DNA from: Herpetosiphonaceae bacterium
GTDB lineage: Bacteria; Chloroflexota; Chloroflexia; Chloroflexales; Kallotenuaceae
NCBI GenBank assembly: GCA_036374795.1
Contig: DASUTC010000287.1
Coordinates: 1-53,748 of the forward strand
DNA: 53,748 nt
Reading direction: 5' to 3'
The notes under the pieces were generated by a model. That model was not told where the DNA came from. It did no database searches and saw nothing but the letters and a program-made list of their open reading frames with translations. Numbering within the stretch: the first letter of the stretch is position 1; each line of letters begins with the position of its first letter. Position numbers and translations under genes: made by a program. This document shows positions 27,731 to 43,768 of this stretch, one piece after another.

Positions 27731-27759
27731 TTGACAGCGGCGCGCGCGCTTGCTATGCT
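27731..27759 (+). promoter_or_regulatory. Strong promoter of leuS leader
   Basis: A consensus TTGACA (27731-27736), 17-base spacer, and TATGCT (27754-27759), which is also preceded by TGC (extended -10). Transcription should start near 27766, about 26 bases before the leader peptide and 308 bases before leuS. Confidence 0.8.
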
Positions 27760-27791
27760 TGCGCTACGAATGTATTTCTGATGCAACAGCT

Positions 27792-27881
27792 ATGAATCGA
27801 CTGTCTCACAGCCAGCTTCTCCTCGTCCGGCGGCTCCTCCTCGTGAGGGGCTTCGTGGCATGGGGAGCGGCGACAGCGTAG
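27792..27881 (+). CDS. Leu-rich leader peptide of leuS
   Basis: A 29-codon ORF that begins about 26 bases after the predicted transcription start and ends at TAG 27879-27881. Seven of 29 codons are Leu, mostly in two runs LLLV-RR-LLLV at codons 9-18. This is the hallmark of ribosome-mediated attenuation: ribosome stalling at Leu codons when leucyl-tRNA is scarce. No clear ribosome site precedes the ATG. Together with the terminator at 27908-27933 and the alternative pairing 27859-27867 with 27911-27919, it forms a complete attenuator for leucyl-tRNA synthetase. Confidence 0.75.
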   Translation: MNRLSHSQLLLVRRLLLVRGFVAWGAATA

Positions 27882-27919
27882 CACAGTCGCCAGCGCAGCC
27901 GCCGAGGTGCCTCCCCATG
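27859..27919 (+). promoter_or_regulatory. Antiterminator pairing of leuS attenuator
   Basis: CATGGGGAG (27859-27867, within the last codons of the leader peptide) is a perfect 9-base complement of CTCCCCATG (27911-27919), the left arm and loop of the terminator. The two structures exclude each other. Upstream, GCTCCTC (27833-27839) can pair with GAGGGGC (27845-27851, one G-U) across the second Leu run, a plausible sensor hairpin. Confidence 0.65.
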
Positions 27920-27933
27920 TGGGAGGCATTTTT
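27908..27933 (+). terminator. Attenuator terminator before leuS
   Basis: TGCCTCCC (27908-27915) pairs with GGGAGGCA (27921-27928) around CATGT and is followed by a T-run to 27933. It lies 140 bases before leuS and 27 bases after the leader peptide stop, so it would stop transcription before leuS unless the antiterminator forms. Confidence 0.8.
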
Positions 27934-27954
27934 GATTCCAGAAAGGAGCCGAGC

Positions 27955-28188
27955 ATGTCCTGCCTTCTCGTTCGCGCGCGCCGCCACACCGCGCTATCCA
28001 GCCAGGTTCGACGAAGCCTTCGCGCGACACTCATCGTCGCGCCAGATCCCAACATCGATCAGGAGGTAGCAGCATGTCAGAGCGATACGATCCCCAGGCT
28101 GCCGAGGCGAAATGGCGGCAGCGCTGGGAGGCCAGCGGCCTGTACCGCACCAACCTGGACCAGGCCCGCCGCCCGTTTTATAACATGA
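27955..28188 (+). CDS. Possible small ORF overlapping leuS start
   Basis: A 77-codon frame with a near-ideal ribosome site (AAAGGAG, 27942-27948, 6 bases before ATG 27955). It opens with MSCLLVRARR, runs through the leuS ribosome site and overlaps leuS by 115 bases out of frame. It is Arg-rich and the overlapped part reads like a shadow of leuS. It might be a second regulatory uORF whose translation affects leuS initiation, or chance. I do not recognise it. Confidence 0.3.
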   Translation: MSCLLVRARRHTALSSQVRRSLRATLIVAPDPNIDQEVAACQSDTIPRLPRRNGGSAGRPAACTAPTWTRPAARFIT

Positions 28189-30494
28189 TGGAGTTTCCCT
28201 ATCCCTCAGGCGAGGGCCTGCACGTCGGCCACGTCTACACCTACTGCGGCGCGGATGTCTTCGGGCGATTGCGCCGGATGCAGGGCTACGATGTCTTCCA
28301 GCCGATCGGCTTCGACGCCTTCGGCATCCACTCCGAGAACTTCGCGCTGAAGCTGGGCCGGCATCCGGCGGAGGTCGTTCCGGCCAATATTCGCCGCTTC
28401 CGCGAGGAGCAGATGAAGCTGCTGGGCTGCCAGTTCGACTGGTCGCGCGAGGTCGATACGACCAGCCCCGACTACTACCGCTGGACGCAGTGGATCTTCG
28501 TGCAGTTGTTCAGGGCCGGGCTGGCCTACCAGGCCGCAGCGCCCGTCAACTGGTGTCCCAAAGACCAGACCGTCCTGGCGAACGAGCAGGTGATCGATGG
28601 GCGCTGCGAGCGCTGCGACACGCCGATCGAGCAGCGCGTGATGCGCCAGTGGTTTTTCGGCATCACACGGTACGCCGATCGCCTGCTGGATTTCAGCGGC
28701 GTCGAGTTTCCTGATGCCTCGATCAAGCGTCAGACCGCCTGGATTGGACGCAGCGCGGGCGCGGAGATCGACTTTGCGGTTGTCGGTACCAACGCCACGA
28801 TCACCACCTTCACCACACGGCCCGACACGATCTTCGGTGCGACCTGCATCGTGCTGGCTCCTGAGCATCCGCTGGCGACAACGATCGCCACGCCGCAGCA
28901 GCGCGTCGCCGTCGCCGGGTATGTCGAGCAGACGCAGCGCAAGCTGGAGCGTGACCGGCTGATCGGCGCGGAGAAAACGGGCGTTTGGACCGGCGCGTAC
29001 GCGATCAATCCGGCCAGCGGCGCGCGCATCCCAGTCTGGATCGCCGACTATGTGCTGGTGCGCTACGGTACGGGCGCGATCATGGCGGTGCCTGCCCACG
29101 ACGATCGCGATCATGCCTTCGCCGTGGCCCACAGCCTGCCGATCGTGCCGGTGATCGCGCCGACGCATGCCGAAGCAGGGACGATGCCCTACGTCGCGGA
29201 TGGCATGCTGATCGACTCGGCGCGGTTCAGCGGCATGGAGAGCGCCGCAGCCCGGCCCGCGATCGTGGCGTGGCTGGCCGAGCGCGACGTCGGTCGCGCC
29301 CGGACGACGTATCGGCTGCGCGACTGGCTGATCTCGCGGCAGCGCTACTGGGGTCCGCCGATCCCGATCGTCTACTGCGAGCGCTGCGGGACGCTGCCCG
29401 TGCCGGAGGATCAACTGCCGGTGCTGCTGCCGCCGACCGCCAACTTCCGGCCTACCGGCACCGCGCCGCTGGCGGCGATCCCTGAGTTCGTCAACACCAC
29501 CTGCCCGCAGTGCGGCGGCGCGGCCCGGCGCGAGACGGATGTCAGCGATAACTTTCTGGACTCGGCCTGGTACTTTCTGCGCTACCTGTCGACCGAGCAG
29601 CACGATCGACCGTGGGACGTGGAGCGGGTGCGGCGCTGGCTGCCCGTCGATCACTACGCGGGCGGCCCTGAGCACACCACGATGCATCACCTGTACGCGC
29701 GATTCGTCGTCAAGGCGCTGTACGATCTGGGCCACCTGCCCTATGAGGAGCCGTTCAAGCGGCTGCGGCTGCACGGCATGATCACCAAAAACGGCGCGAA
29801 GCTGTCCAAAAGCCGGGGCAACGTAATCTCGCCCGACGGTTACATCGACCGGTACGGCGCGGACATTTTTCGTATGTACATGCTCTTCCTGGGGCCGTGG
29901 GAGGATGGCGGCGACTTCACCGACGCCGGGATCAGCGGCGTGGCGCGCTTCGTCGGGCGGCTGTGGGAGCTGATCAGCGGCCCGCGACCGAGCGGCGACG
30001 GCGACGCCGCGCTGTCGGACGAGGCCGAGCGGCGACGCAACCAGACGATCGCGCGCGTGACGGAGGGCATCGACGGGCTGCGCGCCCACGTGGCGATTGC
30101 GGCGCTGATGGAGGAGGTAAGCTGGCTGCGCGGCCACGCGCAGCGGCTGCGCGACCGGCAGTGGCGGCGCTCGATCGAGACGCTGGCGCTGCTGATCGCG
30201 CCGCTAGCGCCGCATCTGGCCGAGGAAGCCTGGGAGCGACTGGGACAGCCGTTCAGCGTCCACCAGCAGCCGTGGCCGGAGGCCGATCCGGCGATGCTGG
30301 CCGCCGCGACGGTCGAGATTCCGGTGCAGGTCAACGGCAAGCTCCGCGACCGGATCGTGGTTGCCGCCGATGCCGCCGAGGCAGCCGTGACCGCCGCCGC
30401 GCTGGCTAGCGAGCGCGTCCAGTCAGTGTTGGGCGGCGTGCAGCCCAGGCGGATTGTCGTCGTGCCGGGCCGCGCGGTCAACATCGTCCGCTAG
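28074..30494 (+). CDS. leuS: Leucyl-tRNA synthetase
   Basis: An 806-residue class I synthetase that charges tRNA-Leu. The HIGH motif is HVGH at residues 50-53 and the KMSKS motif is KLSKS at 576-580. Between them lie the editing (CP1) domain with TTFTTRPDTIFGATC and GTGAIMAVPAHDDRDHAF (editing Asp), and Cys pairs CERC...CPQC of the zinc-type insertion. Length is slightly below the usual 820-860. ATG 28074 follows AGGAGG at about 28061-28066. Expression is probably controlled by the leader peptide attenuator. Confidence 0.97.
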   Translation: MSERYDPQAAEAKWRQRWEASGLYRTNLDQARRPFYNMMEFPYPSGEGLHVGHVYTYCGADVFGRLRRMQGYDVFQPIGFDAFGIHSENFALKLGRHPAEVVPANIRRFREEQMKLLGCQFDWSREVDTTSPDYYRWTQWIFVQLFRAGLAYQAAAPVNWCPKDQTVLANEQVIDGRCERCDTPIEQRVMRQWFFGITRYADRLLDFSGVEFPDASIKRQTAWIGRSAGAEIDFAVVGTNATITTFTTRPDTIFGATCIVLAPEHPLATTIATPQQRVAVAGYVEQTQRKLERDRLIGAEKTGVWTGAYAINPASGARIPVWIADYVLVRYGTGAIMAVPAHDDRDHAFAVAHSLPIVPVIAPTHAEAGTMPYVADGMLIDSARFSGMESAAARPAIVAWLAERDVGRARTTYRLRDWLISRQRYWGPPIPIVYCERCGTLPVPEDQLPVLLPPTANFRPTGTAPLAAIPEFVNTTCPQCGGAARRETDVSDNFLDSAWYFLRYLSTEQHDRPWDVERVRRWLPVDHYAGGPEHTTMHHLYARFVVKALYDLGHLPYEEPFKRLRLHGMITKNGAKLSKSRGNVISPDGYIDRYGADIFRMYMLFLGPWEDGGDFTDAGISGVARFVGRLWELISGPRPSGDGDAALSDEAERRRNQTIARVTEGIDGLRAHVAIAALMEEVSWLRGHAQRLRDRQWRRSIETLALLIAPLAPHLAEEAWERLGQPFSVHQQPWPEADPAMLAAATVEIPVQVNGKLRDRIVVAADAAEAAVTAAALASERVQSVLGGVQPRRIVVVPGRAVNIVR

Positions 30495-41929: not shown

Positions 41930-43768
41930 ATGCACCATAAACTACGCACATTCATGCGCGACAACCCGATCCCGTTCATCGCGCTGCTCGGCCTGCTGGG
42001 CGGCGTGATCGCGCGCTGGGGCGTTGGACAGCCGCAGATCGCCAGCTGGATCTGGATGGCTACGCTAGCGCTCGGCGGCGCGCCGCTGGTCTGGGAGACG
42101 CTGCGGGGTATGCTGCGCGGGCAGTTTGCCTCCGATGTCGTAGCGATGCTGGCGATCAGCACCGCCGTGGTGATGGGCGAATATTTCGCGGGCATCGTGA
42201 TCGTGCTGATGCAGAGCGGCGGCGAGGCACTCGAAAACTACGCGCTGCGCCGCGCGTCGTCCTCACTGGATCGGCTGCTGGCGCGCGCGCCGCGTGTGGC
42301 TACGCGCAAAACCGACGAGGGCTTGCAGGAGATCGACGTAGCCGAGGTGTGCGTCGGCGATACACTGATCGTACGGCCCGGCGATCTGATCCCGGTCGAC
42401 GGGTCGCTGCTCTCGGAGCGCGCCGACATCGACGAGGCGGCGCTGACGGGCGAGGCGCTGGCGGAGGGCAAGCAACCGGGCGATCGGCTGCTGAGCGGCA
42501 GCGTCAACGTGGGCAGCGCGTTCGAGATGCGCGCCGACAAGCTCAGCGAGGAAAGCCAGTACGCCAAAATCGTCCAGCTCGTGCGAAAGGCACAGGAGGA
42601 AAAACCGGCGATTCAGCGCCTCGCCGACCGATACGCGGTCTGGTTTACGCCGCTGACCCTGGCGATGTGCGGCGTCGCCTGGGCGCTGACCGGCGATCCC
42701 CGCACGATTCTATCGGTATTGGTCGTCGCCACGCCCTGCCCGCTGATCCTGGCGACACCGATCGCGATCATCGGCGGCATTAACCGCGCGGCAGAGGCCG
42801 GGATCATCGTCAAGGGCGGCGTGGCGATCGAGCAGATCGGCCAGGCGCGAACAGTCGTCTTCGACAAAACCGGCACGCTCACCTATGGCACGCCGGTCAT
42901 CGAGCGCGTGGTACCCTTCAACGGCGTAGCGCCGGATGGGCTGCTCTACAAGGCGGGCAGCGTCGAACAGCTCTCGTCGCATGTGCTGGGGCGGATACTG
43001 GCGCAGACCGCGCAGGAGCAGTGCGGGTCGCTGGCACTGCCGACCAACTTCCGCGAGACGCCGGGGCGCGGCGTGGAGGGCGAGATCGAAGGGCAGCACG
43101 TGATGGTCGGTTCGCCGCGCTTTCTGGCGGAGCGGCTGGGTACTGGCGAGCTTCGAGCGAGCGATAAGGCGGGTTTCGGTCATGGCCTGACCGCGCTGAT
43201 CGCGATCGACCGGCAGCCAGCGGGCGCGATCCAGTTCAACGATCAGATCCGGCCCGGCGTTCCCGAATTGATGCATCGGCTGCGCGAGCTGGGCGTGCGG
43301 CGCACCGTGATGCTGACCGGCGATCACGTTGAGAACGCCGAGGTCATCGCGCGCGCGGCGGGCATCGATCAGAGCCAGGCGAACCTGCTGCCTCAGGATA
43401 AGGTCGCGGCGCTCGAAGCGCTCAAGCAGCGCAGCGCGCTGATTGTGATGGTCGGCGACGGCATCAACGACGCGCCCGCGCTGGCGACAGCGACCGTCGG
43501 CGTGGCGCTGGGCGCGCACGGCACGGGCATCTCCGCCGAAGCCGCCGACATCGTGCTGCTGGTCGATGACGTGACCAAGGTCGGCGATGCGGTTGCGATC
43601 GGGCAGCGCATGCTGCGGATCGCCAAACAAAGCATCTACGTCGGGCTTGGCCTGAGCTTTGCCTGCATGGTCGTCGCCAGCTTTGGGCTGATCCCGCCGA
43701 CCATCGGCGCGCTGCTGCAAGAGGCGATCGATGTCGCGGTGATCTTGAACGCGCTGCGGGCGCGCTAG
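41930..43768 (+). CDS. P1B-type metal-transporting ATPase (TPC motif)
   Basis: A 612-residue heavy-metal efflux ATPase. It has the actuator loop LTGEALAEGKQPGD, phosphorylation site DKTGTLTYG (Asp about 312), MLTGDH and VGDGINDAPAL. The membrane metal site reads TPCPLILATP (268-277), i.e. TPC with X5-P, not CPC or SPC; from memory this marks subgroup P1B-5, linked to nickel and iron export. There is no N-terminal metal-binding domain. ATG 41930 has no clear ribosome site. An upstream GTG at 41879 lies within the promoter. The Fur-like box supports an iron-related (or manganese) substrate. Confidence 0.88.
   Translation: MHHKLRTFMRDNPIPFIALLGLLGGVIARWGVGQPQIASWIWMATLALGGAPLVWETLRGMLRGQFASDVVAMLAISTAVVMGEYFAGIVIVLMQSGGEALENYALRRASSSLDRLLARAPRVATRKTDEGLQEIDVAEVCVGDTLIVRPGDLIPVDGSLLSERADIDEAALTGEALAEGKQPGDRLLSGSVNVGSAFEMRADKLSEESQYAKIVQLVRKAQEEKPAIQRLADRYAVWFTPLTLAMCGVAWALTGDPRTILSVLVVATPCPLILATPIAIIGGINRAAEAGIIVKGGVAIEQIGQARTVVFDKTGTLTYGTPVIERVVPFNGVAPDGLLYKAGSVEQLSSHVLGRILAQTAQEQCGSLALPTNFRETPGRGVEGEIEGQHVMVGSPRFLAERLGTGELRASDKAGFGHGLTALIAIDRQPAGAIQFNDQIRPGVPELMHRLRELGVRRTVMLTGDHVENAEVIARAAGIDQSQANLLPQDKVAALEALKQRSALIVMVGDGINDAPALATATVGVALGAHGTGISAEAADIVLLVDDVTKVGDAVAIGQRMLRIAKQSIYVGLGLSFACMVVASFGLIPPTIGALLQEAIDVAVILNALRAR

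Follow-up and report, generated by a model that had tools for sequence, protein, structure and literature searches.

In Escherichia coli the synthetase genes pheST are subject to leader-peptide attenuation through the cognate codons of pheM. The enzyme is a housekeeping one and the phylum a different one from that of the locus described here, an accessory leucyl-tRNA synthetase (LeuRS) gene, leuS2, of a Herpetosiphonaceae bacterium (Chloroflexota). The accessible part of a comparative study names pheST as an attenuated system and predicts attenuators for leuS and trpS in Streptomyces (PMC1262725). By its description, the Streptomyces leuS region resembles ours in having a leader ORF with Leu codons, an antiterminator and a terminator upstream of the gene; however, it is a comparative prediction only and comes from another phylum, and that part of the study describes neither a paralogue-specific sensor nor a second leader ORF (PMC1262725).

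Two further systems involve additional synthetase copies. The auxiliary, antibiotic-resistant trpRS1 of Streptomyces coelicolor is described as controlled by ribosome-mediated transcriptional attenuation (Vecchione and Sello 2010, as reported in PMC4787780). Like leuS2, it is an accessory copy under a leader peptide with cognate codons, but it encodes a TrpRS, is actinobacterial and has been studied experimentally. In Bacillus, hisS duplicates carry a His leader peptide and the parent hisS carries a T-box, so that, as with leuS1 and leuS2 below, the copies of a duplicated synthetase have different sensors; the enzyme there is HisRS, the phylum Firmicutes, and the portion of the report available to us mentions no second leader ORF (PMC2965389). 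Finally, in the LEU element upstream of actinobacterial leuA, Leu codons that form a run within a leader ORF base-pair with the gene's Shine-Dalgarno (SD) sequence (PMC1262725, as far as its accessible text goes). A search of the open-access literature found no report of leader-peptide attenuation of a synthetase in Chloroflexota, which is not proof of absence.

Two LeuRS genes in one genome

The window, the whole 53,748-nucleotide stretch that we analysed, encodes on its forward strand, to which all window coordinates below refer, an 806-amino-acid LeuRS (leuS2, 28074–30494) that matches TIGR00396 with 879.8 bits and contains Pfam editing and anticodon domains. Another leuS, leuS1, which the first-pass annotation had overlooked, is located on contig 168 of the same genome; the two are 50% identical, and both proteins match the bacterial LeuRS model. 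In the tree the window leuS2 forms a clade (100/98) with genes of G001, G030, G002 and G046, with LeuRS from other families of the class as the sister group; one mis-framed row (L172) sits on a long branch that has no contact with the leuS2 clade. A gene in G065, read by eye over 370 codons until its frame or contig ends, resembles the leuS2 type. In G030 (contig 10, L198), about 6 kb separates leuS1 from leuS2, and both are on the same strand. The neighbours of leuS2 (a D12 DNA methylase, a DUF427 protein and peptidoglycan-binding proteins) were considered as operon partners or a pathway link and rejected.

Parts of a probable attenuator upstream of leuS2

A consensus promoter, a Leu-rich leader ORF, a terminator with a T-run and an alternative nine-base pairing had all been proposed from the first inspection of this leader, and each proved to be present. 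The promoter is of the sigma-70 type (TTGACA-17-TATGCT with a TG before the -10 element, 27731–27759, 10/12 matches to consensus); TTGACA, the 17-bp spacer and TA(T/C)(A/G)CT are retained upstream of leuS2 in G030 and G002. It is followed by ORF1 (27792–27881), whose 29 codons encode MNRLSHSQLLLVRRLLLVRGFVAWGAATA, with seven Leu residues and the motif LLLV twice. The first Leu run, CTT CTC CTC at codons 9–11 (27816–27824), provides putative sensor codons; the second, CTC CTC CTC at codons 15–17 (27834–27842), contains a CTCCTCC that is retained in G002 and G030. Of 20,000 dinucleotide-shuffled versions of the leader, 3 contained an ORF with two LLL runs; ORF1 apart, none of the window's 562 short ORFs has two.

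The two runs consist of CUC and CUU codons throughout (six of six), which makes tRNALeu-GAG the probable sensor tRNA. Across five window genes, such CUY codons account for 21% of Leu codons; part of the bias in ORF1 could reflect selection for pairing. The second run also contributes to a hairpin with its downstream arm (GCTCCTC/GAGGGGC, 27833–27851), possibly a pause hairpin, of which two pairs are altered on both sides in G065.

The intrinsic terminator, TGCCTCCC-CATGT-GGGAGGCA-TTTTT (27908–27933), lies between ORF1 and leuS2. It was overlooked by a simple terminator scanner, in our reading because G-U pairing lengthens the stem into the T-run. Within the end of ORF1, the antiterminator 5′ strand CATGGGGAG (27859–27867) is a perfect 9-bp complement of the 3′ strand CTCCCCATG (27911–27919), which comprises the terminator 5′ arm and loop. 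A 9-bp complement arose in 205 of 20,000 dinucleotide shuffles (about 1%). The lack of a clear ribosome site before ORF1, which the first inspection had named as a weak point, holds for the window (SD hybrid energy -2.4 kcal/mol) but not for G002 (-5.8) and G065 (-6.0), in which the SD sequence is good.

Conservation of the leader

Five leuS2 loci, those of the window, G030, G002, G046 and G065, have readable upstream DNA; the leaders of G001 and G003 were left out, their contigs ending inside the gene. Comparison of leuS upstream regions had been set as the refuting test of the attenuator reading. Compared at the level of sequence, all five loci keep the Leu-run ORF, the antiterminator strand and the terminator hairpin. 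The orthologues of ORF1, each closed by a stop codon, encode MIDKRYNTLLLSLRLLLARGSLAWGA in G030, MNATCSNQLLGRELLRMRSYLAWAV in G002, MLLLTNSEEPFYAGRWQMC in G046 and MPAAHHNQLLLALLLGLAPGSFAWEEA in G065. At every locus a strand near the end of ORF1 is complementary to the 5′ arm of the terminator, and this strand ends 1–11 nucleotides upstream of the ORF1 stop codon. The leuS1 upstream regions lack this arrangement.

When an RNA model (R1) built from three of the loci, G065 not among them, was run against 158 genomes of the class, it recovered the G065 leader (E-value 5e-7). When four sequences are aligned, hairpin 1 and the terminator together show four pairs that are changed on both sides, a count reached by 3 of 500 shuffles. 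For the antiterminator the corresponding count is two pairs, which with four sequences is not above that of shuffles. One of its A-U pairs in the window is G-C in G030, a change that the terminator cannot explain since the column sits in the terminator loop. The G046 leader was aligned by eye, and the comparison comprises five sequences in total.

Predicted operation of the switch

We modelled the position of the ribosome by folding truncated RNA thermodynamically, with a footprint reaching about 17 nucleotides upstream and 14 nucleotides downstream of the A site. With a ribosome on the Leu run and the terminator 3′ arm not yet synthesised, the predicted antiterminator probability is 0.98, 0.99, 0.73–0.77, 0.85 and 0.68–0.87 at the five loci; with the ribosome at the stop codon it is 0.00 at all five. 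In the window, folding with no ribosome at all and with the 3′ arm still to be synthesised likewise favours the antiterminator (0.80, predicted), and basal control would therefore depend on ORF1 translation. In most leuS2 sequences the terminator, once complete, is predicted to exceed the antiterminator in stability. The switch must therefore act during transcription, as it does in known attenuators.

We infer the following sequence of events. An ample supply of Leu-tRNA for CUC and CUU, most likely tRNALeu-GAG, would let the leading ribosome reach the ORF1 stop codon and cover 27859–27867, which would allow the terminator at 27908–27933 to fold. When this Leu-tRNA is scarce, the ribosome would stall on a Leu run and leave 27859–27867 free to pair with 27911–27919 before the terminator 3′ arm is made; with the antiterminator formed, RNA polymerase would read through into leuS2, and expression would be induced. 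A ribosome-mediated transcription attenuator very probably controls leuS2. The leader-peptide attenuation originally suggested for this locus is supported, with the specification that the gene under control is the accessory one of two leuS genes.

A second leader ORF

Between the terminator and leuS2 lies a further ORF that the first-pass annotation had missed. ORF2 (27955–28188) begins MSCLLVRARR, has 77 codons, overlaps leuS2 out of frame, carries Leu codons at positions 4–5 (27964–27969) and is preceded by the SD sequence AAAGGAG (27942–27948, hybrid energy -7.9 kcal/mol). In the mechanical ORF list this frame opens at an earlier GTG (27907–28188) and passes through the terminator; of the two starts, the ATG at 27955, which an SD sequence precedes, is the more likely. 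An SD-led ATG ORF with Leu-Leu within its first 16 codons is present at all five leuS2 loci, a count not corrected for relatedness, and the two Leu residues are codons 4–5 at four of them. Upstream of 38 other Chloroflexota leuS genes there is none: an SD-led out-of-frame start occurs in 10, never with Leu-Leu. ORF2 begins MQAIISGNYRHSLLLVVGHR in G046 and MFCLLVHERR, MRYLLAAYND or MDWLLTRVGR at the other three loci. In G065 it starts 209 nucleotides from leuS2, compared with 119–133 elsewhere, and since it thereby fell outside the ORF2 scan it was read by eye. We take ORF2 to be a genuine, conserved element whose function is putative.

Its retention, which singles out the leuS2 loci, would fit control on two tiers, an extension of the ORF1 attenuation rather than a replacement for it: ORF1 would attenuate transcription, and the ORF2 Leu codons would hold the leuS2 SD sequence, AGGAGG at 28061–28066, until a stalled ribosome frees it. 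G046 fits this proposal best, with a perfect 11-bp pairing between the Leu codons and the SD sequence that none of 2000 shuffles equalled and that is predicted at 0.81 and lost upon stalling. The same pairing is predicted at 0.66 in the window but is not significant for the window sequence alone (P = 0.11 against shuffles), and it is weak at the three remaining loci (P = 0.30, 0.71 and 0.09). Moreover, masking the Leu codons in the window leaves the leuS2 SD sequence paired elsewhere (unpaired 0.23), and both the length of ORF2 and its overlap with leuS2 vary between loci. SD sequestration by the Leu codons is not supported as a general mechanism, pairing being above shuffles in G046 only, and we regard the two-tier scheme as a tentative possibility rather than a probable one. 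With less confidence than for ORF1, we infer that ORF2 may add a further level of control, on translation: ribosomes that stall at its early Leu codons would change how accessible the leuS2 start is.

The good SD sequence of ORF2 would also suit tandem leaders that boost leuS2 by ribosome loading or re-initiation and shield the leader from Rho, with no sensing of leucine; that ribosomes re-initiate at bacterial leaders is an existing proposal (PMC4833913, in its accessible part). We consider this very unlikely, however, because the CUY Leu runs of ORF1, the terminator and the conserved antiterminator would be left unexplained.

T-boxes at other leuS genes

The expectation that synthetases of Gram-positive bacteria are usually controlled by T-boxes fits Chloroflexota as well: a motif scan found T-box core motifs upstream of 28 of the 38 other leuS genes, and the leuS1 operon of the window genome also has a T-box. 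Rfam adds a T-box at one more of the 38 (L167) and one outside them, in Dictyobacter (L081). On contig 168 of the window genome a T-box (42859–43093; L197:560–794, G000) scores 80.7 bits with an E-value of 6e-17, below the gathering score of 93 bits. It precedes a series of methyltransferase-like, ADP-ribosylglycohydrolase-like and leuS1 genes, and its specifier position is CUC by alignment. Upstream of the G096 leuS (L050), which lacks a T-box motif, there are a tRNA gene, a short ORF encoding MLLSSCCVLMYPRLAFHVL and a possible hairpin with a T-rich tail; this arrangement may be another T-box replacement.

That related leuS genes are under T-boxes, and that CUCCUC can pair with GAGG strands, might suggest that the leuS2 terminator serves an RNA switch that binds protein or tRNA, T-box-like or for LeuRS autoregulation, with the Leu codons as incidental C-rich pairing partners. 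Yet the window has no Rfam match, to T-box RF00230 or any other family, Rfam detects no T-box at leuS2 of G030, G002 or G046, and the T-box motif is absent from every leuS2 locus. Furthermore, all five loci keep the Leu runs in frame in an ORF that ends just past the antiterminator strand, and in G065 and G002 this ORF has a good SD sequence. Such a switch is most improbable, and so is a chance or constitutive terminator with no regulatory role, given conservation at five loci, the out-of-sample match in G065 and the base-pair changes.

Similar leaders before other genes

The R1 search also returned leaders of the same layout, rich in branched-chain amino acids (BCAA), before ilvB in G098 and G097 and, more weakly, in G101, while R2 matched leaders before ilvD in genomes presumed to be Herpetosiphon-like. 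Because of these matches, leader-peptide attenuation seems to be used within Chloroflexota. Weak R1 and R2 matches were rejected, those in G014 and G029 as CRISPR-like repeats and others as lying within coding DNA. An ORF scan added ilvB leaders in G002, G003, G004 and G026. ilvB was assigned by TIGR00118, and the other gene names come from reading the sequences.

In several Chloroflexota, Val/Ile/Leu-rich leader ORFs lie upstream of ilvB at L206, L207, L208, L240, L241, L244 and L246, with terminators in those inspected; these are apparently undescribed leader-peptide attenuators. Before an ilvD-like gene (L266, L269) there are a leader encoding MNNRPAFIIISNLLSLVIVVITRSLLCGRG (beginning MS in L266) and a terminator. 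The leader models also found, before a citramalate-synthase-like gene, an Ile-rich leader ending in VTIIIEIIEPRVPGHLALGGIL with a terminator (L273; G109 contig 210:4383–4491). On contig 4 of G225, two BCAA-rich leaders with terminators lie about 0.9 kb apart (L265 and L274), the second directly before a ThDP-enzyme-like gene. The leuS2 attenuator may descend from an ilv leader.

Discussion

Our results suggest that the leuS2 leader is a case of classical ribosome-mediated transcription attenuation, with a possible second tier. The principle is a known one; what appears to be new is its use beside a main leuS wired to a different sensor, together with ORF2. The pairing between Leu codons and an SD sequence that is significant in G046 only recalls the LEU element, which differs from ORF2 in forming a pseudoknot and in preceding leuA. 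It is conceivable, though we think it somewhat improbable, that the full arrangement comprises three RNA sensors that respond to a single amino acid and probably to a single tRNA species, with leuS2 under two tandem Leu-sensing leaders, one transcriptional and one translational, and leuS1 under a T-box with a CUC specifier.

These findings would extend leader-peptide attenuation of synthetases to Chloroflexota. The duplicated leuS copies would listen to different signals, uncharged tRNA through the T-box for leuS1 and ribosome stalling through the leader peptide for leuS2. By analogy, a role of LeuS2 in resistance would be plausible. We propose a backup-enzyme design, in which leuS2 would be switched on once the main LeuRS fails, for example under a natural LeuRS inhibitor; ORF2, if functional, would make this a rare double lock on a single gene.
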